Shown: piece by piece, positions 3,237 to 37,304 of the stretch
Numbering within the stretch: position 1 is the stretch's first letter
Layout: the number at the start of each line of letters is the position of its first letter
The notes under the pieces: model-generated
Seen by the model: only the letters and a program-made list of their open reading frames with translations
The model's database searches: none
Told to the model about the DNA's origin: nothing
Assembly (NCBI RefSeq): GCF_017357825.1
Contig: NZ_CP046072.1
Location: forward strand, 434,001-498,000
Reading direction: 5' to 3'
DNA length: 64,000 nt
Source: Sulfurimonas aquatica
Lineage (GTDB): Bacteria; Campylobacterota; Campylobacteria; Campylobacterales; Sulfurimonadaceae
Translations under genes and position numbers: made by a program

Positions 3237-5591
3237 TTGTTTAAATGGATACTCTTACCCATCCTCTTTATTAATCTTTATGCACTTGAAGTTTCTATGG
3301 ATAGTGCTAAAGATGATTTCTTACGCTATTCAATTCTAAATATTTCAGACTCTAAAGATTTTGTTTGTGAAGAACAAAAAAATGATTTTGAGGTTACAAC
3401 TGAAATAATATGTGCATTTTTAAAAAGACCATCGCAAAGTATAAAAAAAATACAAAATGATTTTTTTAAAGTTGATACATTTATAAAAAAGGATACATTT
3501 TTCATATCTGTAAAGCCTTATCATAAAATTAAATTAAGAGCTGAAGTATTTGATCTTACAAAAGATAGTACTACATATGAAGCAGATGTGACTCTGTCGA
3601 AAAAATGGATTATCTTTGGATATGAAGATAAATTACCTCTTATTAAAAATATTCAAAGACCAGAAATAAGTATTAATTTTCCATTTTTTTCAGACAAAGA
3701 CAAACTTCCATATGTAGGTAGCTTAGATATTAAGGGAAATCCTGTACATATTAAAAAGGTAGGTGACGTAACAGATTATCTTCAGGTAAAAAAGTACTAT
3801 AAAGCGAAGAAGTATGAGCAGTGCATGGAACTAGCAGACGATATTTTGATGAAGTATCCAAATACACTCTTTAAAGCAGAACTTTTATATTACAAGATAA
3901 AACTATACTCTAAATTAAAAGATTATGACAATGTTATTAGTCATTCAAAAGTTTTTTTGAGGGAATACTCTTCAGATGAAAATATTCCAGAAATTCTTTC
4001 CTATACTGCAAAGGCTTATGCACAAATTGGTATTAACATAGACGCAGACTACTTCTTTGATAGACTCTTTAGTGAACATCCAGACTCTGTTTATACACAA
4101 TGGGCTTATATTTATAAGGGTGAAATGTTTGAAGCATCAGGTGGGGACTCTAAAGCAGTTTTTTACTATAAAAAAGCTCTTTATGAAACACAAAATGTGG
4201 ATGTAGCAGTAAGTGCAGCATATAAACTAGCATTTATTAGACAGTCTGAGTCTTTTAAAGACTCAGCAAAATATATAGATAAAATCATTAATGCAAACCA
4301 ATCTTTTTTTATGCATGACCTAAGAAAATCTAAGACAATTATGCATAATTTTGCTGATGGCGGTGACTATGAAACAGCGCAAAAGATTGCTAATGCTTTA
4401 CTTAATTCGATTGATGCTACAAACGATGATTATGAAACATACTTAAGTGAAAAAGCTCTATGGCTAGCAAAGACTGATAATAAACAAGATGCTTTAGTCG
4501 CTTTAAATACCTATCTTAAACAGTTTCCTGATGGTGAGTTTGAGCATAGAGTCCAAATTGCAAAAGACGCACTCTTTTTTGATACAACGGAGTCAAACAG
4601 TTCGGTTAAACTTGTAGAGTATGACAAACTTATAGAAGATTACGCGAATGATTCTATTGGTAACCGCGCTCTATATGAAAAAGCTAAGTTACAACTCTCA
4701 GAGGGTATGTACAGTAAGGTCTTAGAGGCTAAAGAAGAGCTTTCATATTTAGATATTCAAGAGTACTCTGACACAGATGAAATGATTAATGAAGCGGCTA
4801 TTGGTGTTATGAAAAAATCATTAGAATCTAAAGAGTGTAAAGATGTACTAGTAATCTCAAATGATTATAACATCACTCTTTCAAATGAATGGGATGATGG
4901 GATATATGATTGTGCAATGATGGGTGGAGATTATCAACTATCTAAAAACATAGCAGAGAAGAATTTAAAATCTGAAGATATATCATTAAGAAAGAAGTGG
5001 CTCTATAGATATATAAAAGTTGACTTTGCTACTGGAAATTATAGCAATGTAATAGATGCCTCAAAAGATCTAATAGCACTCATTGAAGATGACAAGGATT
5101 CTGAGTATAAAGATATTTATAGATATATCTTTGATACATATGATAGAGTTGAGAAAAAAGATGAGATGGTATCAGCTATGTCTAAAATTGAAAATATTTT
5201 TGGGACTACTTATATAGATATTGATAGATACATTGCAGTAATGTCTATAGGAAGTAAGAGAAAAGATGACACAATGGTAATATCATTTGGCTCAAAAGTG
5301 ATGGATATACAGAGATCTTCAAACTCAAAAGCTCAAAGTCCATATGTTGAGTTTACACTTTATCAGTCATATATAAATAAAGAAGATTATATTAAAGCTT
5401 TAGAGGTTATAGAGTCTTTAGATAATGTAGAACTTGATAAAACACAAAGAGCTAGACAAAAGTACTTATTAGGGACAACATTAACAAAGCTATGGAGAGA
5501 TGATGAGGCTAAGGTGGCATATAAACAAGCTATAGAAGCAGATGGTGAATCTGCTTGGGCAAAGTTAGCAAAGAGTGCACAGGAGATTTAA
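3237..5591 (+). CDS. pflA: Flagellar motor periplasmic scaffold protein PflA (TPR protein)
   Basis: The 784-residue protein starts with a short Sec signal ([16 protein letters not shown]). It continues with a mostly beta region to about residue 175 and then a long helical part with repeated tetratricopeptide-like units to the end. Size, architecture and position directly after nuoN match C. jejuni PflA (about 788 residues), which with PflB builds the extra periplasmic disk that anchors additional stators and gives the campylobacterial flagellar motor its high torque. The start is TTG at 3237, preceded by a good AGGGGAAGAG ribosome site; no ATG is better placed. The stop overlaps the stop of convergent dapB. 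Assignment rests on architecture and synteny, not on a residue motif. Confidence 0.78.
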
Positions 5592-9854: not shown

Positions 9855-10868
9855 TTAAAGTTTAGAAGCAATATCCTTTAGAGCAAAACTTGCATGGTTA
9901 AATGCAAGCGCAATGCTACCTTGATCCGTTACAACATCACCTATAGTATAGAGACCTTGAACATTTGTTTCCATAGTCTCTTCATTATATACAGGAACAT
10001 CCCATTCACCAGTTTTAACGCCAGAGTTTACAAGAAGGTCTTTTGGAGTTGTACCACCAAGTGCATAAACAGCTCTATCATATTCTGATTTTGTGCCATC
10101 AGTAAAGTTTACTAGAATTTTTCCATTTTCAGAGGGCTCAACACTCTCTATATCTACACCCATTTTATTAAGGATTTTTCCATTGTCTAGATATTTGGTA
10201 CACATCTCTGTGTTAAGAGGGTTCATTCTTGTAATATCGGCTTTTCTGTAGTTTAGAGTTACAACACAGTCTTCCATACCTTCTAGTTCCACTAAACCGT
10301 AAGCATACTCGCCAGCAGTGTCTCCACCGCCGACTATCATAACATGCTCGCCATTTTGAACTTTTGAAAGATTAAAGTTAAGTAACCCTTTAATCTCTCT
10401 TGGAAACTTATACTTTGGTTTATTTGGCTTACCCATACGACCGACTGAGAGAATAACATTTTTTGCTTTCATTTTCTCAATACCTTCAGCTACTTGATCG
10501 TGGCCAAAAACCATCTCAAACAGTCCATCTTTATCTTTAGTTACTCTAAAAATATCATGGTTATACTCAAACTTATCAAGTACTCCAGCATCTTTTAGTT
10601 TGTCGTCCATCTGCTGGATATACTCTTCTTTAGAACACTCATCAAATGTTACATTACCTGTAAATTCAAACTTGATTCCCATCCAGTCCTTATCTACACG
10701 TTTGCCTTTTTTGTAAAACTTATGGATCATGTCATTGTGGTGAGGTGCTTTATCTATTACAATAATATTTTCGATTCCAGCAAGTTTCGCTTCAATAGCA
10801 GATGCCATACCACCAGGTCCAGCACCAATAATTGCTATATCTACTACTTTTGAATTATCTTGAATCAT
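9855..10868 (-). CDS. fqrB: Flavodoxin:quinone reductase-like NADPH flavoprotein
   Basis: The 337-residue FAD/NAD(P)H oxidoreductase resembles thioredoxin reductase in fold but lacks a CxxC redox pair. It has the FAD motif GAGPGGMASA near the N-terminus, a second Rossmann motif GGGDTAGEYA for NADPH and the terminal FAD motif TIGDVV. Segments such as KFYKKGKRVDKDW and NFTDGTKSEYDRAVYALGG match my memory of H. pylori HP1164 and C. jejuni Cj0559. FqrB exchanges electrons between flavodoxin reduced by pyruvate oxidation and NADPH. It follows trxB by 28 bases in the thioredoxin operon and has an AAGGAT ribosome site. Confidence 0.78.
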   Translation of the reverse strand: MIQDNSKVVDIAIIGAGPGGMASAIEAKLAGIENIIVIDKAPHHNDMIHKFYKKGKRVDKDWMGIKFEFTGNVTFDECSKEEYIQQMDDKLKDAGVLDKFEYNHDIFRVTKDKDGLFEMVFGHDQVAEGIEKMKAKNVILSVGRMGKPNKPKYKFPREIKGLLNFNLSKVQNGEHVMIVGGGDTAGEYAYGLVELEGMEDCVVTLNYRKADITRMNPLNTEMCTKYLDNGKILNKMGVDIESVEPSENGKILVNFTDGTKSEYDRAVYALGGTTPKDLLVNSGVKTGEWDVPVYNEETMETNVQGLYTIGDVVTDQGSIALAFNHASFALKDIASKL

Positions 10869-10896
10869 TTTTTATCCTTTAAATTTATAAATTCTT

Positions 10897-11841
10897 TTAG
10901 TTTAGAAGTTCATCCACATATGCAATAGCCTGAAGGGCTGCAACAGCACCATCACCTGCCGCACTTACAACCTGCTTAGGAGCTGCTATGCGCATATCAC
11001 CTGTTGCATATAATCCGGGTACAGATGTTGCCATAGAGATATTTACTATCACTTGACCTTGATCATTCATATCACATAAAAAGCTACCATCTTCTTGAAT
11101 TAATGTCTCATTATTAACATCATTTCCAACAAATGTAAAGATACCAGGTACCTCTATATCTCTAGTTTCACCATCTTTATTGATTACTCTAAGTCCTGTA
11201 ACTCCAGCAGTCTCATCACCATAAACTTCATCAGGTGTAGAGTTTAATACAAATTCAATATTTTCTGTATTCTTTGCACGTTTGATTGTATTTGGAGCGG
11301 AGCGAAAAGTATCACGTCTATGTATCAGGTAAACTTTTGAGCATATCTTTGCAAGGTAAAGTGCCTCTTCTAACGCAGTGTCTCCACCACCAATTACGGC
11401 AACTTCTTTACCCTTATAAAAAAAACCATCACAAGTAGCACAAGTACTGACACCCTTGCCAAAAAACTCATCCTCACCACTAAAGCCAACTCTACGAGGA
11501 GAAGAACCCGTTCCGACTATAACACTATGAGCATCAACAGTTTTTCCATCTTCTTTATGAATAGTAAATAGATCACCATCTTTTGTAATACGAGTGACAC
11601 TTACCATTTCATGGACTAGACCAAATTTTTGACACTGTGCTGGCCATGGCATCATTAAGTCCATTCCTGTAATTTCACCTATGACACCCGGGTAGTTTTC
11701 AATCTCTGAAGAGTTAGTAATTTGCCCACCAGGCATACCTTTTTCAAACATAGTTACATTTTCTAGGCCGCCGCGTGTAGTATAGAGGCCAGCAGTAAGT
11801 CCAGCTGGTCCACCACCAACTATTGCACAATCTAATATCAT
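10897..11841 (-). CDS. trxB: Thioredoxin reductase
   Basis: TrxB reduces thioredoxin with NADPH through FAD. The 314-residue protein has the FAD motif [12 protein letters not shown], the redox-active disulfide C134-A-T-C137 in [10 protein letters not shown], the NADPH motif [10 protein letters not shown] and the terminal ATGDMR motif, all in canonical order and at canonical length. It has an AAGGAAG ribosome site. It sits in a minus-strand operon with trxA, so enzyme and substrate are made together. Confidence 0.95.
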
Positions 11842-11872
11842 ATTATTCTTCCTTGGAATTGTTTAGTTTTTC

Positions 11873-12361
11873 TCATAGTGAATTGACTTGTTGGGACAAC
11901 TCTTTTAAATTATCTAGTTTTCTTATCATACTATCTTGTTTATAAAGTGAGTTCTTATCTTTTTTTATAATAAATATAGATGGAGACTCATATATATTAA
12001 AACGCTGTATAAATTTAAGTGAAGTAGATGTACCTGCTCTTAAAAACGTTGTTGTAGACGTATTTTCTCTAGCCATATTATAGTGATCAATTGCTAAGAT
12101 ATGTATATTTAGATCTGTGTTTGCTAAAAGGTCCATAGTTCCTTTTTCTTTAGAAGAGTAGTATACAACTATATATTTATCTGCTTTTGGGGTGAAAATA
12201 TTGCTCTTTTCATAAAAAGACCACTCTTTGAAATTTATAAATTTGTATTCAGAAAATTTGTAGTTAAAGTAAGCAAAGGCGATAGCTATCATAGCTGCAC
12301 CAAAAAAAGAGGCTAAAAGAGTGGAAAGAGAAAAGAGACTCTTGCCGCCTTTTCTTGCCAC
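11873..12361 (-). CDS. Membrane-anchored thioredoxin-like protein without redox cysteines
   Basis: The 162-residue protein has one N-terminal membrane helix (about residues 14-33). The rest reads like a thioredoxin fold: a strand KYIVVYYSSK where CxxC would follow, and YESPSIFII resembling the cis-proline strand. It contains no cysteine. It lies between trxA (9 bases upstream) and trxB (31 bases downstream), so it belongs to the thioredoxin operon. The start is GTG at 12361 with no obvious ribosome site, so it may depend on coupling to trxA. Function unknown; a scaffold or partner role is only a guess. Confidence 0.65.
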   Translation of the reverse strand: MARKGGKSLFSLSTLLASFFGAAMIAIAFAYFNYKFSEYKFINFKEWSFYEKSNIFTPKADKYIVVYYSSKEKGTMDLLANTDLNIHILAIDHYNMARENTSTTTFLRAGTSTSLKFIQRFNIYESPSIFIIKKDKNSLYKQDSMIRKLDNLKELSQQVNSL

Positions 12362-25492: not shown

Positions 25493-27514
25493 TTAAATTT
25501 TTAGAGAAAAGATAGCAGTAGAACCCTTTTTTAAACCATCACTCGTAAGTTGAATATCGCCATCAAGAAGATTAGCCATTTTTTTACTCAAAGAGAGGCC
25601 TAAACCTGAGCCCTTATGTTTTTTTTGCATAATGTTTTGAACTTGGGTAAAGTCACTAAAAAGCTTGCTAATGTCATCTTGAGATAGCCCAATTCCACTA
25701 TCTTCTACCACTATATATAAAGAACTATTTTTATTATATACACTCAGTTTTACATAACCGCTAGAAGTGAATTTTATCGCATTTGAGAGCAGGTTAAGAA
25801 TGATTTGCTGAAACATTTTAGAATCAGTTTGAATCCTCTTCTCTCCTAGCTTATCACTTATAAGCTCAAAAGCTATCTCTTTATCATCTGCAAGTGGTCG
25901 TAGCATGTCATAACAGTTTTGCACGAGTTCTAAAATATCCACATCTTTGATGTGTGTCTCCATCTTTCCAGCTTCAATTTTTGCAATGTCGAGTATCTCA
26001 TTTATCATACTCAGAAGATACTCAGCAGATGACTCAATACTAGCAACGGAGTCTTGCTGATTTTCTGTAAGCTCTTCATAAGAGATGAGGTTTTGAGAGA
26101 ATCCAATTATTGCATTTAGGGGAGTGCGAAGCTCATGTGACATATTTGATATAAATGCTGATTTTGCTTTTGAGACTGCTGTTGTAGTGTTTATAAGTCT
26201 TATCCTTTCAAGTTGAAGAGTAATCATACTTACGATAGAAGCATAAAAGTTTCGTTCATTCTCATCATCTATATTTTTTACAATCAATGAGATTGATCCG
26301 AAATACTCTTTAATATCTTTTTCAAAATTTGTTACATAAATATCTATAGAGTTTTGGTCTTTATTTTTGTGGAAATAGAGATCATTTTTGTTTGTAAGTT
26401 TTTGGATCTCTTGAATGGATGTCTCTATACACTCCTGCTCATCTTGCGTTTGAATAATAGTGTTAAATATCTCTATTAGTTGTATGAAACGCTGGAGTCT
26501 TACTCTATTTTCTGTCTCTAAAGTTTTTAGAGCATCGGAGGTAGTTTCAAGCATCTTGTTAAATGAATCAGCAAGTGTTGCTATCTCGTCTTGCGTGTTA
26601 ATTGTAAGTTTTGTCGCATAGTTATGCTCTTTTGTAATTGTATCGGTAACTTTTGTGAGTTGCTGTATCGGTTTTACTATCTCTTTGGCGTATCTTATAG
26701 AGACTATTATAATGATAAGCAGTATAAGTGCAGATGTGTAGAGTATAAACCTTGTAAAATCATAGAGCATGCCTAAAGCTATATCTTTGTTAACGCCATA
26801 GACTAGATAGAAGCTTTCTAAGAATGAAGAGATCTTCTTATAGACTATCACATGTTCATCCGTTATGACACTCTCTATGTCTTTTTGAATACTGAACTTT
26901 AGATGGGCATCATCTCCTACACTAAAAGAAGAATTTGGATTTATAAGATAAGAGTGTATGCCCTCTTGTTTATGAAGATACTTATGTAGATTTAAAAGAT
27001 TGTACTTTAAGACTAAATGACCTAATGTTTTTCTTTTATTAAAAGAGCTATATATGCTTGAGTAGATGTAGAGATATTTATCAACTATAGAGAAGCCACT
27101 TTCGTTTTTTAAAGGAAGTTGATGAAATCTCTGGGATAGGCTCATAATATTTGAAGATGAGACAATGTTTGCACTCTTATCGACAACAAGCATCTCTATA
27201 TCTAAGTCATAATCTGCTACTTTTTTACTAAGAAGATTTGATATGCGTTTATCTATATCTTCGGCTAATATATCATCCATAATCTCAAGTGAACTCAAAA
27301 AGTTAATCTCTTTTTGCATTGATTTAAGATGTGCCTCTATGCGTTTTACCACTACTTCAGTTTGATTTATCTGCTCAGTTATGATTTTATCAAGCATCTT
27401 ATTTTCACCCAAAAAGAGTGTGTAGCTTAAAAGGGCCAAGAAAGGTAAAACACTAATACTTATAAAGCTAAAGAGAAGTCTGTTCTTGAGAGATTTTTGT
27501 AAAAAATGAAACAT
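25493..27514 (-). CDS. Membrane sensor histidine kinase
   Basis: The 673-residue protein has a membrane helix near residues 13-35, a large periplasmic sensor region to about 255, a second helix (about 257-275), a HAMP linker (about 277-330), a GAF-like stretch (340-445), a HisKA domain with the phospho-accepting histidine in SHELRTPLNAIIGFS (about residue 460), and an ATPase domain with DSGIGLS and GSGLGLSL boxes. The start ATG at 27514 overlaps the stop of the PstS-like gene (TGATG) and has GGAG upstream. It is the last gene of the barrel/binding-protein operon and has no regulator partner next to it. Confidence 0.88.
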   Translation of the reverse strand: MFHFLQKSLKNRLLFSFISISVLPFLALLSYTLFLGENKMLDKIITEQINQTEVVVKRIEAHLKSMQKEINFLSSLEIMDDILAEDIDKRISNLLSKKVADYDLDIEMLVVDKSANIVSSSNIMSLSQRFHQLPLKNESGFSIVDKYLYIYSSIYSSFNKRKTLGHLVLKYNLLNLHKYLHKQEGIHSYLINPNSSFSVGDDAHLKFSIQKDIESVITDEHVIVYKKISSFLESFYLVYGVNKDIALGMLYDFTRFILYTSALILLIIIIVSIRYAKEIVKPIQQLTKVTDTITKEHNYATKLTINTQDEIATLADSFNKMLETTSDALKTLETENRVRLQRFIQLIEIFNTIIQTQDEQECIETSIQEIQKLTNKNDLYFHKNKDQNSIDIYVTNFEKDIKEYFGSISLIVKNIDDENERNFYASIVSMITLQLERIRLINTTTAVSKAKSAFISNMSHELRTPLNAIIGFSQNLISYEELTENQQDSVASIESSAEYLLSMINEILDIAKIEAGKMETHIKDVDILELVQNCYDMLRPLADDKEIAFELISDKLGEKRIQTDSKMFQQIILNLLSNAIKFTSSGYVKLSVYNKNSSLYIVVEDSGIGLSQDDISKLFSDFTQVQNIMQKKHKGSGLGLSLSKKMANLLDGDIQLTSDGLKKGSTAIFSLKI

Positions 27515-29215: not shown

Positions 29216-30865
29216 ATGAGAGGATTATATTTAACAAGTTTTATAGTTGCTACATTAGTATTGAGTGGATGTGGGGGAAGTTCAGATAGTAGCAGTGAGA
29301 GTAACGAAGCTACTCAAAGTAGTTCAACTATTACTGTAGAGAGGGGTCCTATTCTTGGAGCAACAGTAGTTGATTCAGAGGGAAAAGTTGCAAAAGAAGA
29401 TGCTAATGGTCGCTATATATTTACTCCAGCTCCTCTTTACCCTATTATCGTAAGTGGTGGTGTTATAGATATGGATAGAGATGGGAGTATAAGTATAGGC
29501 GATGTGAAGAATGATTATAAGCTCAGTACAACATCGGGGAGTGTCGTAACTATGGCTACTACAATGGCGGTAAATCCAGCAACAAAACTGAAGTTAGAGA
29601 CACTTGCTAGTAGTTTTGGATTGTCGCTTGATGATGTAATGAGCAAAACACCAACAGAGTCTAAAGAGATAGAAGCCATTTCAAACATTCTATATAAGTA
29701 TGCAAAAGATAATAATATTTCAGATTTACTAGATAGTAGTGATGAGAAAATACTTAACTTTGATATCGCAGCAATTACCTTAGATATAAAAGAGACATTT
29801 GATGCTTATGAAGCTGAGGGAGATGAGCATGATTCTAAAGAGACTGAAGAAGAACTGATGAATGCCATAGCTTATGGTGTCTCTATTTTAGACTCAGATG
29901 GAGTGAGTGAAGCACTAAGTGGTTTTGGGGAGATTGATGATGATTTAGTACAGAGTTTATCTCAAGAGCTTTTAGTAATGAAGAGCGAGTATGAGTCTGA
30001 ATATGGAGATTTAGACTATGAAGAGAGTGATGGGGATGATTATGTGCATAACCAAGGGTTGGACTGTATGGCCTGTCATGGAACGAATCCTACTGCACTT
30101 TTTGAAAGTGAGGATGAAGATGATGAGTCAGATGATCATGATGATGAAAATGAAAATGAGTCTGAAGAGAATGATGAGCAGTTTACATCGGGTGCTACTA
30201 TTTATAGAACTCTTAATGCAGCCAATGGAGTTACAAATGTGGCAAGTGGTTACTCTTTAAGATTAGTGCTTGAAAACACTAATGCAGTAATAAATTATAG
30301 ATTAGGTCAAGGTAATGGAAATGTAAACGCGACCTTTGATGAAGGGACAGTAAATAGTTATACTGCTCATGTAATAGACCCAGAGGGGAATATTGTAAAT
30401 AGCTCTCTTAGCAATTCTCATGATTTATCTAGACTTGCATGTAATAGCTGTCATACATCTGCTGGAGCTAATGGAGCACCGGGAAGAATAGTCTCTTTTA
30501 ACTACTCTACCCCAGAAGCTGAAGTTCAAACACCTGTAGTTACACCTGAGGTAAATAGTACGACAGAAACTACACCTACTACTACAGTTGTAAAAAAATC
30601 TTTTGCAAATGATGTCATGCCAATATTTGAGGCTAAATGTAAGATTTGTCATGGAAATAGTGGAAATTTTAGTGTAACTACAGCTGCAGTAACATATATG
30701 AGTATTAATGCTTTTGGTGGGACAAATATAGCAACACCAACAAGTTCATCTATCTTAACAAAAGCAACTGGAGTTGCTCATGATGGTGGGGTTATATTCA
30801 GTAATACGTCAGCTGAGTATGCTACCATAAGGGATTGGATTTTTGAGGGTGCGTTAAATAACTAA
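29216..30865 (+). CDS. Multiheme c-type cytochrome lipoprotein
   Basis: The 549-residue protein has a lipoprotein signal (lipobox LSGC, C19) and a Ser-rich linker. An N-terminal domain follows with an EF-hand/dockerin-like loop DMDRDGSISIGD (85-96). Three heme c motifs are visible: CMACH (284-288), CNSCH (409-413) and CKICH (475-479). A highly acidic D/E/N segment lies at about 298-322, between heme 1 and the SGATIY segment. It is probably exported to the outer membrane or periplasm. It is the first gene of a six-gene operon with another cytochrome, a TlpA-like protein, DUF4266, DUF3570 and ApbE. AGGAG precedes the ATG. An electron-transfer role is inferred from the hemes. Confidence 0.8.
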   Translation: MRGLYLTSFIVATLVLSGCGGSSDSSSESNEATQSSSTITVERGPILGATVVDSEGKVAKEDANGRYIFTPAPLYPIIVSGGVIDMDRDGSISIGDVKNDYKLSTTSGSVVTMATTMAVNPATKLKLETLASSFGLSLDDVMSKTPTESKEIEAISNILYKYAKDNNISDLLDSSDEKILNFDIAAITLDIKETFDAYEAEGDEHDSKETEEELMNAIAYGVSILDSDGVSEALSGFGEIDDDLVQSLSQELLVMKSEYESEYGDLDYEESDGDDYVHNQGLDCMACHGTNPTALFESEDEDDESDDHDDENENESEENDEQFTSGATIYRTLNAANGVTNVASGYSLRLVLENTNAVINYRLGQGNGNVNATFDEGTVNSYTAHVIDPEGNIVNSSLSNSHDLSRLACNSCHTSAGANGAPGRIVSFNYSTPEAEVQTPVVTPEVNSTTETTPTTTVVKKSFANDVMPIFEAKCKICHGNSGNFSVTTAAVTYMSINAFGGTNIATPTSSSILTKATGVAHDGGVIFSNTSAEYATIRDWIFEGALNN

Positions 30866-30875
30866 AGGGGGCTTT

Positions 30876-31448
30876 ATGAAAAATAGCATTTATTATCTTG
30901 TATTTTTGGCTTTTACAACTCTTCTCATCGGTTGTGGTGAGAGTGAAGATGAAACTGTTCTTACAACTACTCAAGGTTGGCACTATCAAGGGAGAGATTG
31001 TTTAGGGTGTCATAATATTGACTTAAAAGAGGAGAAGCATCTTCTCTTTGGAGGGACACTCTATAAAAGTGAAAATGTTACAGACCAGAATGACTTAGAT
31101 AGTGTCTGTGGTGGTAACTTTATAATTAACTTTTTGGATAGTAGTTTTCAAACCATATACAGCTCAAAAGATTATGTAGATGAGAACTCACCGGGATATA
31201 ATGCAAAAGGAAACCTTTTTGTGCTCCAAAGAGAGCTTCCTCTAATCAGTGCTGGAGAATACAGAATCCAAATTACAGATGAAAATGGGATTGTGATGGC
31301 TATAGAAGAACATACATTTAATTCACAACCTTATGACATCAACAACCCAGCAAACAGTCAAAATAATGTCTCGTGTAATGCATGTCATGGTATAGGTAAA
31401 AAAGAAGACCCTATTTATGTTGAAATAAATGCAAATCTTTGTAAATAA
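30876..31448 (+). CDS. Diheme c-type cytochrome lipoprotein
   Basis: The 190-residue protein has a lipoprotein signal (lipobox LIGC) and two heme c motifs, CLGCH near residue 47 and CNACH near residue 168. Between them is a strand-rich domain that begins with LFGGTLYKS and ends with a segment like GEYRIQITDENG. The order CxxCH, G-G-T-L-Y, beta domain, CxxCH repeats that of the central part of the preceding cytochrome, so the two may share a domain. It starts 10 bases after it, with AAAGGGGG as ribosome site. Confidence 0.78.
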   Translation: MKNSIYYLVFLAFTTLLIGCGESEDETVLTTTQGWHYQGRDCLGCHNIDLKEEKHLLFGGTLYKSENVTDQNDLDSVCGGNFIINFLDSSFQTIYSSKDYVDENSPGYNAKGNLFVLQRELPLISAGEYRIQITDENGIVMAIEEHTFNSQPYDINNPANSQNNVSCNACHGIGKKEDPIYVEINANLCK

Positions 31449-31458
31449 AGGATAAAAA

Positions 31459-31953
31459 ATGAAAAAATTAATAACACTACTATTTTTAACTCTTTCGCTC
31501 TTGGCAGCTCCAAAAGTTGGTGATAAAGCAGTTTCGTTTGAACTGCCAAATCTTTATGATGCTAGTAAAAAATCACTCAATAGTGACTTTGAAGGCAAGG
31601 TAATCTTACTTAATATTTGGGCTAGTTGGTGTCCTGGCTGTAAAGAGGAGATGCCACTCTTTGTGAAACTTCAAGAGGAGTTTGATAAAAAAGATTTTTC
31701 AATTGTTCTAGCTAACATAGATTCTGAAGCTATAAACGCCATCTCATTTTTAGAAGAAGTGGATGATGATGCGATACTTACCGCACTCTATGATGAGTCT
31801 AAAAAACTACCAAAAGAGTACAGATGTATAGGTTTGCCATCTTCATATCTTATTGATAAGAGTGGGACTATTGTAGAGGTTTATGTTGGGGCTTTAAATG
31901 AGAATGCGATAGTAAAGTTAAAAGAGAAGATTAAAAATCTTATAGGAAAGTAG
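31459..31953 (+). CDS. TlpA/ResA-like exported thioredoxin
   Basis: The 164-residue protein has a signal peptide (MKKLITLLFLTLSLLAA) and a thioredoxin fold with the active site WASWCPGCKEEMP (C58, C61), followed by a cis-proline strand IGLPSSYLID. TlpA/ResA-type proteins reduce periplasmic cysteines, for example in apocytochromes before heme attachment. In this operon it may act on the cytochromes or on the paired cysteines at the C-terminus of the DUF4266 protein. It starts 10 bases after the diheme gene and has AAAGGA upstream. Confidence 0.85.
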   Translation: MKKLITLLFLTLSLLAAPKVGDKAVSFELPNLYDASKKSLNSDFEGKVILLNIWASWCPGCKEEMPLFVKLQEEFDKKDFSIVLANIDSEAINAISFLEEVDDDAILTALYDESKKLPKEYRCIGLPSSYLIDKSGTIVEVYVGALNENAIVKLKEKIKNLIGK

Positions 31954-31955
31954 AT

Positions 31956-32174
31956 ATGTATAAACTTATCTTAATATTTTTTGCACTAATTATGAGTGGT
32001 TGTTCTGAGCATCTTGTTCGTGTAATGCCTTATGAAAAAGAGTATTTTGCACAAGATAAGATGAGTCTCTCGCCAATAGCTGAGCGCTCAGAACAAGAGG
32101 GACATATATTCTTGATTCGCGAAGCAAGTGCTGGTGGAGAGAGTTCATTTCAAGGAGGATGCGGATGCAGATAA
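31956..32174 (+). CDS. DUF4266-like small lipoprotein
   Basis: A 72-residue lipoprotein with lipobox LIMSGC (C16) and a mature part of 57 residues ending in a Gly/Cys-rich tail FQGGCGCR, with two cysteines two residues apart. The REASAGG...GGCGC tail is the hallmark of DUF4266. Its function is not established; the cysteines could bind a metal or form a disulfide with the neighbouring TlpA-like protein. It starts 2 bases after the TlpA gene and overlaps the DUF3570 gene by 10 bases. The tail codons also carry the ribosome site of that gene. Confidence 0.75.
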   Translation: MYKLILIFFALIMSGCSEHLVRVMPYEKEYFAQDKMSLSPIAERSEQEGHIFLIREASAGGESSFQGGCGCR

Positions 32175-33283
32175 AACAACTACTTAGCTTTGTTCTCTCT
32201 TTGATTTTTCTAAATCTAAATGCGATGGCATCTGACCTTAAAGATAAAATGTCATTTGGTGTAAGCACATATAGTGATAACGCTGATGTTGAAGTCTATT
32301 CACCAACGTTTGCACTCTATAAAAAACTTGCATCTCAGTGGATGCTGGGTGTAAAGATGAGAATAGATGCAATAACAGCCGCTAGTATTAAAAACGGAAG
32401 TAGTGCTGGTCGTGTAGATGCTGTAACTTCAGCTTCATCAAAAGAAGACAAAACATTTGATGATGTCCGTTTCGCTCCAACTGCTATGCTTACATACGAC
32501 GACAGTGATAATACACTGACATTTGGAACTTACTTTTCATCTGAGGTTGACTATACTGGTCAGGCACTCTTTGTAAACTATGTAAGACAACTCAATGAGC
32601 AAAACACAGCTTTAGGTATCGGATTTGCCCAATCATTTGACAAGTGGAAACCAGTATATGATAGAGAACTTCCAAGAGATAATAGAAATGAGATGAAGCT
32701 AGATTTATCTATAAACCAACTTATATCACCGACATTCTCTATGCAAGCGGTTTACTCTTTCATGAATAGTGAAGGATTTCTCTCTTCACCATATCATTAT
32801 GTACTTCAAGATGACCTCTCAAAGTTTGAAAACTATCCTGCTACAAGAGCGGGTCATGCCTTTGCACTCAAAGGGGTTTATCTTTTAAATGCGACAAATA
32901 GTATGAACTTTTCATACAGATACTATATGGATGATTGGGATATCACTTCACATACTTTAAACGCCGAGTATCTACATGATTTTTCTAAAGTTTTTACAAG
33001 TGGTTTGAGACTACGTTACTACTCTCAAAGTGAATCTTTTTTCATTAAACCAATTGGCTCATATACTTTAACTGATAGATACTATGCGACAGATTATAGG
33101 ATGAGTGCATTTGATTCTTATACTATTGGTATTCCATTTATCTATAAACTTGGTGGTGGGGATAAGCTTACTGCGAGTGTAGATTATTATAAGACATCGA
33201 GTAATGAGTATCTTCAAACTTGGTATGGTATAGACTCTTTAGAATCAGTTTTTGCAACTTTAACATACGAGTTTGATTACTGA
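32165..33283 (+). CDS. DUF3570-like outer-membrane barrel with two flavinylation-type motifs
   Basis: The 372-residue protein has a signal peptide (to NAMA) and a strand-rich body ending in LTYEFDY, as for an outer-membrane barrel of the DUF3570 family. A loop between early strands holds two motifs that fit the ApbE flavinylation consensus D-x-x-[ST]-x-A-[ST]: DAITAAS (68-74) and DAVTSAS (85-91). FMN would attach to S74 and S91. The flavin transferase gene apbE follows with a one-base overlap. I chose ATG 32165 because AAGGAGG lies six bases before it; an ATG at 32159 directly touches that site. Flavin loading is inferred. Confidence 0.75.
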   Translation: MQIKQLLSFVLSLIFLNLNAMASDLKDKMSFGVSTYSDNADVEVYSPTFALYKKLASQWMLGVKMRIDAITAASIKNGSSAGRVDAVTSASSKEDKTFDDVRFAPTAMLTYDDSDNTLTFGTYFSSEVDYTGQALFVNYVRQLNEQNTALGIGFAQSFDKWKPVYDRELPRDNRNEMKLDLSINQLISPTFSMQAVYSFMNSEGFLSSPYHYVLQDDLSKFENYPATRAGHAFALKGVYLLNATNSMNFSYRYYMDDWDITSHTLNAEYLHDFSKVFTSGLRLRYYSQSESFFIKPIGSYTLTDRYYATDYRMSAFDSYTIGIPFIYKLGGGDKLTASVDYYKTSSNEYLQTWYGIDSLESVFATLTYEFDY

Positions 33284-34203
33284 TGTCCATCTTTAGCAAC
33301 GGTCTTAAAACGACCGTTATGAGTACAGAACTTCTTATAGAGTCTAAGGTTTCTAAAAAAGTGCTTTTTGAGTGTTTAGAGTTGGCAAGAGAGTTTGAGG
33401 CTAAATACTCTGCTTATAAAATAGACTCACTCCTGAGTAAGATAAACGCCAACTCTGGCAAGACTCCCATTAACGCAACAAAAGAAGAGCTAGAAATTTT
33501 TCAAAAAGCACTTGATATGGCAGTACTCTCAGATGGAGCATTTGATCCAACCATAGGCTCTATAACACAAGGGAGTTATGGCTTTGGAACTTCAGAAGAA
33601 AAAATCCCTTCTCAAAAAGAGCTAAATTCAAAAAAAGAGTTAGTAAACTATAAAAATATCCAACTGACAAATGAGAGTATATATCTAACAAAAAAAGGTA
33701 TGCGACTTGACCTTGGTGGAATAGGTAAAGGGTATGTGGCAGATAAAATAATAGAGCACTTAAAACTCAAAGGTGCAACTAAAGGCTTAGTCTCTGTTGG
33801 TGGTGAGGTTTGCTCATTTGGTAAAAAGTATAACATAGCAATTAAAAACCCATTTAATGATTCAAATATTGCTCTCATTAAAAGCTCTAATAGCGAACTA
33901 AGTATATCAACAAGTGGAGATTATGAACGCTACATAGACTCAAAAGAGCATCACCATATACTTGACTCTAAGACACAACTCTCTAACCACCATTATAGCT
34001 CTTTAACAATAGTCCAAAATGGCAGAGATACAACTACTCTTGATGCTTTAGCGACTGTGGCGTTTAACTCAAAGCCATCAGAGTTAAAGGTATTGGCAAA
34101 GAAGTTTAAAGTTGCTTTTTTTGCGTTAACTCCACAAAAAGATATCATTATAGAAAACTTTATAAATCTAGATATAGAGGGTTTTGAACTTTTTTCGCTT
34201 TAG
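33283..34203 (+). CDS. apbE: FAD:protein FMN transferase
   Basis: ApbE splits FAD and attaches FMN covalently to a Thr/Ser of a target protein. The 306-residue protein has the family segments DGAFDPTIG, LDLGGIGKGYVADKI, LVSVGGEVCSFGK and ISTSGDYERY, plus the metal-binding TTTLDALATVAFN. The start ATG overlaps the DUF3570 stop by one base, and a stop codon in frame just upstream (33274) rules out an extension. Unlike most Gram-negative ApbE proteins it has no signal peptide or lipobox, so it appears cytosolic while its likely target is exported. Confidence 0.92.
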   Translation: MSIFSNGLKTTVMSTELLIESKVSKKVLFECLELAREFEAKYSAYKIDSLLSKINANSGKTPINATKEELEIFQKALDMAVLSDGAFDPTIGSITQGSYGFGTSEEKIPSQKELNSKKELVNYKNIQLTNESIYLTKKGMRLDLGGIGKGYVADKIIEHLKLKGATKGLVSVGGEVCSFGKKYNIAIKNPFNDSNIALIKSSNSELSISTSGDYERYIDSKEHHHILDSKTQLSNHHYSSLTIVQNGRDTTTLDALATVAFNSKPSELKVLAKKFKVAFFALTPQKDIIIENFINLDIEGFELFSL

Positions 34204-34264: not shown

Positions 34265-35371
34265 ATGTTTAACAAAACAAGTTGTAACATGAATCAGACT
34301 GAGTCTTATATCCGCTTTGTTATTGCATCAGCACTTCTCACTTATGCTGTGTTAAATAGTAGTATTGTTTTTAGTGTTATAAGCTTATTTATCTACTATA
34401 GTGCAGTTAAAAAGTTCTGCTTACTTTATCATATCTTTCATATCAATGAGAAATATGGACTCAAAAACTATTACCTTGCACTTTTACCTAAATATAGAAC
34501 TTCACCAGTCTTTATTTTTAATGATAAATCTAAAATTATTTTTTCTAATGAGTCTGCAAAAGAGGAAATACCAAATATTCAATCACTTACAGATCTCAAT
34601 ATAGACAATCAAGATGAGTTTATCGACAATGGACTAGAAGATGTCATCATGTATAGATATAGAGATAAACATTATCAAGTAGAACTTAAAGGGATTTCAC
34701 AAGAGAAGATTTTTTTAGCATATTTTACAGATGTAACAGAACTTATAGAGCTAAATGAAGCTGTCAGTAAAGCAATAGAAGAGACACAAAGAGAGATTAT
34801 CTATGCTATGGGTGAGATAGGTGAGACCCGATCTAAGGAGACAGGAAACCATGTAAAAAGAGTTGCCCTATACTCTAAGGAACTTGCTAGACTTTATGGA
34901 CTCTCTGAAGAAGAGTCAGAGAGACTACAGATGGCAAGTCCTATGCATGACATTGGTAAAGTTGGAATTCCTGATGCCATTTTAAATGCACCAAGAAAAT
35001 TAACTTTTGATGAGTTTAAAATTATGAAAACACATGCGCAGCTTGGATATGAGATGCTCAAAAGCTCAAATAAACCCATACTTAAAGCTGCATCAATAGT
35101 AGCAAATGAGCATCATGAAAAGTGGGATGGTTCAGGGTACCCTAATGGAACAAGTGGCGAAGATATTCATATATATGGTCGCATTACTGCCATTGCAGAT
35201 GTGTTTGATGCACTTGGAAGTGAGAGGGTTTATAAAAAAGCTTGGGAGCTTGATGATATTTTAGAGCTATTTAAACAAGAGAGCGGTAAACATTTTGACC
35301 CAAAACTTATACTGCTATTTATAGATAATTTAGACAAGTTTTTACTCATTAGAGATAAATATATTGATTAA
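34265..35371 (+). CDS. HD-GYP domain c-di-GMP phosphodiesterase
   Basis: The 368-residue protein has two N-terminal membrane helices (about 14-52), a PAS-like middle part (about 75-165) and a C-terminal HD-GYP domain. The catalytic motifs are intact: ETGNHVKRVA, MHDIGKVGIPD, ANEHHEKWDGSGYPNG and GRITAIADVFDAL. HD-GYP enzymes hydrolyse c-di-GMP. The GGGGGA ribosome site is strong. The gap of 61 bases after apbE suggests a separate transcript. It overlaps the NrtS-like gene by 8 bases, so it is linked to that and to the chemoreceptor. Confidence 0.88.
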   Translation: MFNKTSCNMNQTESYIRFVIASALLTYAVLNSSIVFSVISLFIYYSAVKKFCLLYHIFHINEKYGLKNYYLALLPKYRTSPVFIFNDKSKIIFSNESAKEEIPNIQSLTDLNIDNQDEFIDNGLEDVIMYRYRDKHYQVELKGISQEKIFLAYFTDVTELIELNEAVSKAIEETQREIIYAMGEIGETRSKETGNHVKRVALYSKELARLYGLSEEESERLQMASPMHDIGKVGIPDAILNAPRKLTFDEFKIMKTHAQLGYEMLKSSNKPILKAASIVANEHHEKWDGSGYPNGTSGEDIHIYGRITAIADVFDALGSERVYKKAWELDDILELFKQESGKHFDPKLILLFIDNLDKFLLIRDKYID

Positions 35372-36638: not shown

Positions 36639-37304
36639 TTAAACTTTACCAAGTTTATACCCAATGCCACGAACATTTTGAATAATCTCTTTTTGAGAGA
36701 GTTTTTTTCTTAAGTTTTTAATGTGTACATCGACTAGATTACTATGTTTTATGGAGTAGTTATCTTTGTTTATATGCTCACTAAGTTGAAAGCGTGTAAG
36801 TACTTGGTTTGGATTTTTCATAAAGAGCTCAAAGAGATCAAACTCGGATGCAGTAAGATTAATGAGACTACCCTCTATAAAAACTTCTCTGGATGTTGTA
36901 TCTAGAGTAACATTTCCTACAACTATAACACTACTCTTCTCATTAGAGTCCCTTCTCAAAAGCACTCTCATTCTTGCTAATAGTTCCACTGATGAGTAGG
37001 GCTTACAAAGATAATCATCCGCGCCACTATCCAAAACTGCCACTCTATCATTTATCTCTACATTAGCTGAGAGCATCATGACAGGAGTGATTAACTCTAA
37101 ATCACGCATCTCTTTTAATAAAACAAGACCATCCCCATCGCCTAAATTCCAGTCAAGTAAAACAAGTGCATAACTATTTTGGTCAAGTAGCTTTTTAGCC
37201 TCTTCATATCCAGCTGCATGGTCACAGTGATACTTCTCACTTCTTAAAAGTTGTAGAAGTTGTTTTGCAGTGAGGGCATCATCTTCAACTATGAGTAAAT
37301 TCAA
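36639..37304 (-). CDS. OmpR/PhoB-family response regulator (orphan)
   Basis: The 221-residue protein has a receiver domain with phospho-accepting D51 (LLDWNLGDGDG) and K101, and a C-terminal winged helix of the Trans_reg_C type (LTASEFDLFELF to NVRGIGYKLGKV). No kinase gene adjoins it. OmpR/PhoB-type regulators bind 11-base direct repeats like those upstream of the cytochrome operon at 29155, so that promoter is a possible target, by inference only. A minus-strand TATAAT lies upstream at 37337-37342. Confidence 0.88.
   Translation of the reverse strand: MNLLIVEDDALTAKQLLQLLRSEKYHCDHAAGYEEAKKLLDQNSYALVLLDWNLGDGDGLVLLKEMRDLELITPVMMLSANVEINDRVAVLDSGADDYLCKPYSSVELLARMRVLLRRDSNEKSSVIVVGNVTLDTTSREVFIEGSLINLTASEFDLFELFMKNPNQVLTRFQLSEHINKDNYSIKHSNLVDVHIKNLRKKLSQKEIIQNVRGIGYKLGKV

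Follow-up and report, generated by a model that had tools for sequence, protein, structure and literature searches.

A Six-Gene Operon of Sulfurimonas aquatica Combining a Predicted Flavin-Bearing DUF3570 Barrel, a Signal-Less ApbE and Heme Lipoproteins: a Candidate Cell-Surface Redox Module

Introduction

On which side of the outer membrane would a DUF3570 protein hold its flavins, and in which compartment would they be attached? These questions are raised by a six-gene operon (29216..34203, forward strand) of Sulfurimonas aquatica, located in a 64,000-nucleotide stretch of contig NZ_CP046072.1 (hereafter the window) of the 2.85-Mb host genome. The operon encodes, in this order, a triheme lipoprotein, a diheme lipoprotein, a TlpA/ResA-like thiol oxidoreductase, a DUF4266 protein, a DUF3570 protein, and the flavin transferase ApbE. 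An earlier interpretation made by a model from the DNA letters (the original prediction) had described these genes as tightly packed or overlapping, and the intergenic gaps are indeed 10, 10, 2, −16, and −1 bases. Its two heme lipoproteins are confirmed by three and two CxxCH motifs, respectively, together with lipoboxes, and its four other assignments by Pfam matches (Table 1).

We propose, with a probability of roughly 55%, that the operon encodes a flavin redox module at the cell surface, with thiol and heme carriers feeding it and with flavin mononucleotide (FMN) attached to DUF3570 in the cytosol before export. The original prediction is partly supported: its flavin motifs are conserved, its outer-membrane barrel is backed by modeling, and its flavin/heme conduit, perhaps for extracellular electron transfer, is a possible reading; it overlooked the missing signal peptide of ApbE, the predicted extracellular side of the motifs, the published core of the cluster, and the companion genes. 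The comparison drew on the 80 loci that matched the window protein best among those listed, not on a random sample (Campylobacterota, 23; Bacteroidota, 31; γ- and β-Proteobacteria, 16; Aquificota, 2; others, 8).

The DUF3570 Barrel and the Side of Its Motif Loop

The DUF3570 protein matches its family profile (Pfam PF12094) with 187.7 bits against a cut-off of 25. Its structural model, built from a 12-row alignment (mean predicted local distance difference test score, pLDDT, 80.3; predicted template modeling score, pTM, 0.76), is a closed antiparallel barrel with an even number of strands (16), whose outer loops are long and whose inner turns are short, as is typical of outer-membrane β-barrels. 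The fold matches are solved outer-membrane barrels, including OmpG (Z 17.1, residues 25–374), CymA (Z 17.6, residues 21–372), PelB, and others, the 50 rows listed having VIA Z 15–22 and being mostly aligned end-to-end. The barrel of the original prediction is thus borne out by a predicted model and its fold matches.

In the model, the loops after odd strands contain 4, 28, 2, 11, 23, 4, 27, and 15 residues (five of the eight have at least 11), and the turns after even strands contain 4, 3, 6, 2, 4, 4, and 2 residues, which is close to the usual scheme of long loops outside and short turns inside. Since the standard topology places both termini in the periplasm, loop L2, which carries the flavinylation motifs, is predicted to face the cell exterior. 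The third motif (once also a fourth) of the other type of Campylobacterota DUF3570 proteins aligns to loop L4, on the same side as L2.

Conservation was scored on 84 of 93 DUF3570 rows, after removal of the fragment L033 and of proteins with at least 80% identity. The outer halves of the strands are more conserved than the inner ones (2.15 vs. 1.70 bits), a difference equaled in none of 20,000 shuffles, and the outer half holds 38 of the 40 most conserved positions, including Q290, R286, W260, D258, D131, and E129; in this count 22 of 114 outer-loop positions, filled in less than 60% of rows, were left unscored. The conserved site is therefore predicted to form an extracellular vestibule beside the flavins.

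A flavin loop directed toward the periplasm or into the barrel lumen would turn the module into a periplasmic redox relay. This arrangement would suit the published model (Meheust et al., eLife 2021, PMC8238504, available in part), in which extracytosolic thioredoxin-like proteins pass on electrons from DsbD, and L2 is poorly modeled here. Nevertheless, strand parity, loop lengths, and the end-to-end alignment with barrels having their long loops outside, as well as the position of the third motif on the L2 side, make it quite improbable.

Flavinylation Motifs

Both motifs named in the original prediction, DAITAAS and DAVTSAS, are present, although its numbering was two residues off (70–76 and 87–93 instead of 68–74 and 85–91). 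Its claim that they fit the ApbE consensus holds in part. Neither is a strict [S/T]GA[S/T]: the window protein has TAAS and TSAS at the same positions, with the target Ser retained. The pattern [DSE]xx[ST][GSA]A[ST], which was devised only after the motifs had been seen, is nonetheless enriched in L2/L4 beyond chance, with 126 matches at 4,839 L2/L4 positions of the 84 DUF3570 proteins against 2 matches at 25,943 positions elsewhere. The S76 column is Ser or Thr in 81 of these 84 proteins, and the glycine of motif 1 is replaced by Ser in 35 and by Ala in 17. According to the available part of a review (PMC12052999), a Gly-to-Ala change leaves approximately 50% flavinylation in a Klebsiella target, and Ser is accepted.

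The DUF3570 protein of Chlorobium luteolum is flavinylated by its ApbE and loses the flavin only when both motifs are mutated, as reported in the accessible part of PMC8238504. With the motifs conserved and flavinylation demonstrated in this relative, it is plausible that the window protein carries flavin on the predicted sites S76 and S93. The original prediction would have been contradicted by loss of the motifs from DUF3570 proteins next to apbE; as far as sequence tells, they are kept there. This check is not sharp, however, because most DUF3570 proteins without apbE in the examined stretch also keep motif 1, which ends in A[ST] in all 18 except L042, L046, L048, and L058, so that the motif poorly tracks apbE adjacency. 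The apbE genes of such loci may be elsewhere in the genome or beyond the contig.

ApbE and the Site of Flavinylation

The window ApbE scores 210.7 bits against a family cut-off of 25.6 and resembles solved FAD:protein FMN transferases (PDB 7esa, E 3e-34). Its N-terminus, MSIFSNGLKTTVMSTE, contains no hydrophobic segment, and the matched core begins at residue 25. Signal peptides were called from an uncharged 10-residue stretch before the core with a mean hydropathy of at least 1.95; under this rule the window ApbE has neither the signal nor the lipoprotein peptide of exported ApbEs. FMN is therefore probably attached to DUF3570 before export.

Sixty-four ApbE genes were found in the 80 loci: 37 signal-less, 26 signal-bearing, and one lacking its N-terminus (L091), or 38 and 25 after correction of L073, which had been scored on a core strand. 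Signal-less ApbEs account for 19/19 in Campylobacterota, 2/2 in Aquificota, 7/8 scored in γ- and β-Proteobacteria, 1/3 in the other groups, and 8/31 in Bacteroidota (9 after the L073 correction). Where an N-terminal extension overlapped the gene upstream (L024, L037, L039, and L069), it was removed before scoring.

A comparison of 20 genomes with 35 ApbE matches gave the same picture by gene context: all 21 DUF3570-adjacent ApbEs are signal-less, whereas 12 of the 14 located elsewhere have a signal (the L069 gene enters this comparison as L129 and untrimmed). Ten of these genomes had been chosen since their DUF3570-linked ApbE already looked signal-less; in the other ten, taken from a phylum search for DUF3570, the corresponding numbers are 10/10 and 4/6. 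Two signal-less ApbEs, L123 and L131, do not adjoin DUF3570 in the examined stretches, and the DUF3570 gene of G249 is at a contig end; both ApbEs cluster with canonical DUF3570-type Campylobacterota ApbEs, the branch of L131 being long. The window genome encodes a second ApbE (1457291–1458064, reverse strand; L002 and L134), which possesses a signal peptide. It adjoins an exported protein of 174 aa that contains a TITGAT motif and by this motif may be FMN-binding-like; the FMN_bind profile (PF04205) has no match in this genome at E 0.001.

On the ApbE tree the signal label takes four changes, and well-supported branches force at least three. The window clade joins signal-bearing Campylobacterota ApbEs (support 95/88), and an approximately unbiased (AU) test (p 0.12) does not reject a grouping that unites it with the remaining signal-less ApbEs from outside Bacteroidota; for this reason, loss of the signal in the window lineage independently of the latter is not claimed. 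The cysteine content of signal-less and signal-bearing ApbEs is 0.89 and 0.38 per 100 aa, respectively. Fragments L025, L063, and L091 were omitted from the cysteine count and the tree, and the signal-bearing control L108 from the tree as well.

The same barrel and flavins would result if ApbE reached the periplasm by an unrecognised export route and acted on DUF3570 before its assembly by the β-barrel assembly machinery (BAM). In Bacteroidota, signal peptides are evident in most homologues of the cluster, and ApbEs are mostly secreted according to the accessible part of the review, whose named cytosolic examples act on soluble or fused fumarate reductase (PMC12052999). We consider such a route unlikely, given that the window ApbE has no hydrophobic segment ahead of its core, that the same genome retains a signal-bearing ApbE beside the FMN-binding-like protein, and that the signal-less state occurs in several branches of the tree. 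Set against the cytosolic examples of that review, the pairing of a signal-less ApbE with an exported target looks new in the available texts.

Thiol and Heme Partners

The TlpA-like protein has the ResA subfamily model as its best NCBIfam match (1e-24, below the cut-off); its Pfam matches at E 0.01 are Redoxin/AhpC-TSA, and PF13899, the family of the thioredoxin-like partner in the published clusters, is not among them. The C-terminal CxC of DUF4266 is present in all 91 sequences examined, including that of the window. The end of the DUF4266 gene and the start of the DUF3570 gene share 16 bases, and the bases coding for CGC include the DUF3570 start codon. Within 32140–32180, the likely DUF3570 ribosome-binding site (AAGGAGG) and the start codon fall inside the codons of the conserved DUF4266 end FQGGCGCR.

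The ResA-like match, though below its cut-off, is what one would expect if the TlpA-like protein only reduced apocytochrome thiols during cytochrome maturation, the flavin and heme parts being separate functions in one operon. A thioredoxin-like gene is found, however, in all 31 Bacteroidota loci, although no protein with at least two heme motifs is encoded just upstream in any of them, and this division of functions appears distinctly doubtful. Under the preferred reading, the thiol proteins would feed the flavins. DsbD, which delivers electrons, adjoins the cluster in the relative L030 (Pfam DsbD_TM) and in part of the published clusters, so that reduction of an outside substrate is slightly favored.

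The diheme lipoprotein is located beside the core in 11 of the 14 nearest-relative loci (L020–L033, including two Aquificota), as well as in L008 and L009. Three loci are exceptions: upstream of the core, L028 (Sulfurovum) encodes a protein with a single heme and L032 (Nitrospirae) none, and L033 ends with the contig. Both CxxCH motifs are invariant across 14 diheme lipoprotein sequences, and a β-rich region is predicted between them at low confidence (model pLDDT 62.9). The Pfam search of this protein gave no family at E 0.01. No fold is claimed for it, since Foldseek returned no match at E<0.001 and the PDB profile matches reached only E 0.2 and 0.53. A homologue of the triheme lipoprotein is found upstream in 7 of 18 compared loci, some of them incomplete (L020, L022, L024, L025, L026, L029, and L030). 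L026 also encodes, just beyond apbE (10435–12165, reverse strand), a nine-heme protein of 576 aa that matches an MtrC/MtrF-like domain.

When the three nearest same-strand non-core genes upstream were considered, the 49 non-Bacteroidota loci contained a protein with at least two CxxCH motifs in 19 cases, a one-heme protein in 6, and none in 22, two being unscorable (L059 and L081). The background frequency of at least two CxxCH motifs is 40 in 541 non-core genes of these loci, partners included. The heme partners belong to several families, including a β-propeller/HZS_alpha-like one (Pfam was run for L042 and L091). Diheme proteins near DUF3570 in L042, L046, L048, L059, and L091 (KSB1, gammaproteobacterial, and another bacterial genome) form one similarity cluster. 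In Bacteroidota, the partner position is occupied by a Rieske family member in 11 of 31 loci (by Pfam for L056, by similarity for the rest). From its position, we infer that the upstream heme or Rieske protein is an exchangeable electron-transfer partner.

Proposed Mechanism

While still in the cytosol, the DUF3570 precursor would receive FMN on S76 and S93 from the signal-less ApbE. Sec would then export it, and in the outer membrane it would form a barrel of 16 strands. Loop L2 would hold both covalent FMNs on the cell exterior, above a conserved vestibule (E129, D131, D258, D259, W260, R286, Y288, and Q290), where they could exchange electrons with an extracellular substrate. The envelope thiol carriers would be the TlpA-like protein and DUF4266, the latter through its CGC end, both fed by DsbD, and the diheme and triheme lipoproteins would serve as heme carriers in the envelope. 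Cytosolic flavinylation, the electron route, and the reducing direction are what we infer from these data.

Several observations weigh against this reading. The pLDDT of L2 is mostly below 50, and the position of the flavins consequently goes beyond what the model shows. No electron relay across the 16-strand barrel was identified, and DsbD is encoded outside the operon, elsewhere in the window's genome. The motifs of the window clade are often relaxed (DAIAAAS and DAVAGAS in L009, DLINAAS in L026, DTVIGAS in L027, DTVVGAS in L030, and DAQATAS in L028): the fourth motif residue is frequently neither Ser nor Thr, and motif 2 is gone from L011. The signal calls come from a hydrophobicity rule, not from SignalP, and the L024 and L037 open reading frames carry a hydrophobic stretch in N-terminal extensions that overlap DUF3570 by 80 and 113 bases, respectively; these were trimmed as unlikely starts, and both loci are within the 19/19 of Campylobacterota. 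The difference in cysteine content is not significant within Bacteroidota (p 0.27). Finally, a signal is present in most Bacteroidota ApbEs (23/31 by script, 22 corrected), and cytosolic flavinylation is therefore not universal in these clusters.

The boldest form of the proposal is that ApbE can flavinylate a Sec-exported outer-membrane protein in the cytosol, and that DUF3570 carries covalent FMN through Sec and BAM onto extracellular loops, giving the cell a covalent flavin surface with no need for FAD export. We advance it tentatively, at somewhat less than even odds. To our knowledge, there is no precedent for covalent FMN surviving Sec and BAM, which would be new for protein export. If true, target topology would have favored the signal-less state in several branches of DUF3570-paired ApbEs. 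DUF3570 is a confirmed ApbE substrate; with its flavins on the surface and their attachment possibly cytosolic, it would offer a specific and cheap test of surface electron transfer without a multiheme conduit, and the heme-bearing variant offers a chemolithotrophic lineage for testing surface flavin transfer.

Companion Genes and Distribution

In L020–L022 and L024, apbE is followed on its own strand by genes for a porin-like protein, a short PstS-like protein, and a sensor histidine kinase, with an HD-GYP homologue among them in L020–L022; in the window, the same companion genes are split around the operon (Table 1). In L034 (5195–5950) and L044 (7659–8342), from Kapaibacterium and Ignavibacteria, a NusG_II-domain protein is encoded between DUF3570 and apbE.

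Table 1. Features of the operon and its surroundings in the window.
Feature	Coordinates	Strand	Evidence and remarks
Triheme c-type lipoprotein, 549 aa	29216..30865	+	CxxCH at residues 284, 409, 475; lipobox LSGC
Diheme lipoprotein, 190 aa	30876..31448	+	CxxCH at residues 42, 167; lipobox LIGC
TlpA/ResA-like thiol-disulfide oxidoreductase, 164 aa	31459..31953	+	Pfam Redoxin 9e-23; CPGC at 58
DUF4266 lipoprotein-like protein	31956..32174	+	Pfam DUF4266 3.8e-14; C-terminus CGC plus one residue
DUF3570, predicted 16-strand outer-membrane β-barrel	32159..33283	+	Pfam 4.3e-55; model; fold matches
Motif 1 DAITAAS codons (residues 70–76)	32366..32386	+	predicted FMN on S76
Motif 2 DAVTSAS codons (residues 87–93)	32417..32437	+	predicted FMN on S93
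Loop L2 (residues 74–101), between strands 3 and 4, predicted extracellular	32378..32461	+	model strand boundaries, loop lengths
ApbE flavin transferase, 306 aa	33283..34203	+	Pfam ApbE 3.6e-62; without recognisable signal peptide
Porin-like protein, 385 aa	27930..29087	−	divergent here; homologue in 8/18 loci; immediately follows apbE in several relatives
Short PstS-like protein, 139 aa	27514..27933	−	TIGR02136 1.1e-4, far below cut-off; 8/18 loci
Sensor histidine kinase, 674 aa	25493..27517	−	homologue in 7/18 loci
HD-GYP-type protein, YgaP-like transmembrane region	34265..35371	+	HD_5 1.6e-32; 5/18 loci
OmpR-family response regulator	36639..37304	−	homologue upstream of heme genes in several relatives

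Within the phylum, 11 of 397 genomes have a match to the DUF3570 profile, 10 of them above the family cut-off, and the cluster therefore appears to be a patchy accessory trait. A relative is encoded in at least 582 of 589 peptide-pattern stretches from a GTDB-based collection. Among the matches listed, the closest DUF3570 proteins in named genomes are from Sulfurimonas metagenome-assembled genomes (67–70% identity).

Neighboring genes in other lineages bear on a further explanation, namely metal handling, in which the surface flavins would reduce or oxidize a metal that is to be taken up or detoxified, regulators and pumps being encoded close by. VIT1 iron transporters occur in 25 published DUF3570 clusters (PMC8238504, accessible part); in the Flavobacterium loci L076, L084, and L092, DUF3570 is directly followed by genes for a regulator, a kinase, and a pump of CusA/CzcA-like type; and L083 (Bacteroidota) has pump genes nearby, the pump family having been tested for L092 and assigned to the others by similarity. 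The conserved acidic residues on the outer side of DUF3570 would also be in accord with it. A pump is nevertheless present in only 4 of the 80 loci, the response-regulator and kinase scores are under their family cut-offs, and the window operon shows nothing metal-specific, so that metal handling is rather unlikely here.

Comparison with Known Systems

The core formed by ApbE, DUF3570, a thioredoxin-like protein, and DUF4266, together with the two motifs, is already published: Meheust et al. (eLife 2021; PMC8238504) described such clusters with and without DsbD, the latter numbering 316. The accessible part of that paper uses “outer membrane” once, for siderophore transporters, and “beta-barrel” not at all, and it mentions no DUF3570 barrel, no signal-less ApbE in these clusters, and no heme partners of DUF3570. 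The available part of another article (PMC11334425; preprint PMC10979944) mentions the outer membrane in passing and does not name DUF3570. In the open-access literature searched, which excludes subscription papers, DUF3570 and DUF4266 are confined to one paper; no title listed on Sulfurimonas extracellular electron transfer or on Sulfurimonas DUF4266/ApbE flavinylation deals with the operon. The outside location of the flavins, their attachment before export, and the heme-bearing six-gene variant thus look new, lying beyond the available texts.

The window operon shares with the 2021 clusters, as far as the available text describes them, ApbE, a DUF3570 protein with two motifs, the CXC end of DUF4266, a thioredoxin-like protein, and the adjacency of ApbE, DUF3570, and DUF4266. 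It differs from them in its TAAS and TSAS motifs, its TlpA/ResA-type thioredoxin, the unlinked DsbD, and the addition of two heme lipoproteins. An ApbE without a signal peptide is also known from Klebsiella pneumoniae, where, in the part of PMC12052999 available, the cytosolic enzyme serves a soluble fumarate reductase; in contrast to that soluble target, DUF3570 has a signal-like N-terminus and is a predicted outer-membrane protein.

The flavin-bearing barrel proposed here may also be set beside outer-membrane electron conduits. Porin-cytochrome conduits of the Mtr/Pcc type combine an outer-membrane barrel with c-type cytochromes, and the barrel of Mtr is large and encloses a decaheme cytochrome. 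The window operon has no such large barrel around a decaheme protein and no decaheme partner; its counterparts are a predicted flavin-bearing 16-strand barrel and lipoproteins with two and three hemes. Cyc2 is a fused cytochrome-porin whose outer-membrane barrel is thought to pass electrons. Unlike Cyc2, DUF3570 lacks CxxCH, and its cofactor is predicted to be covalent FMN held in an outer loop.

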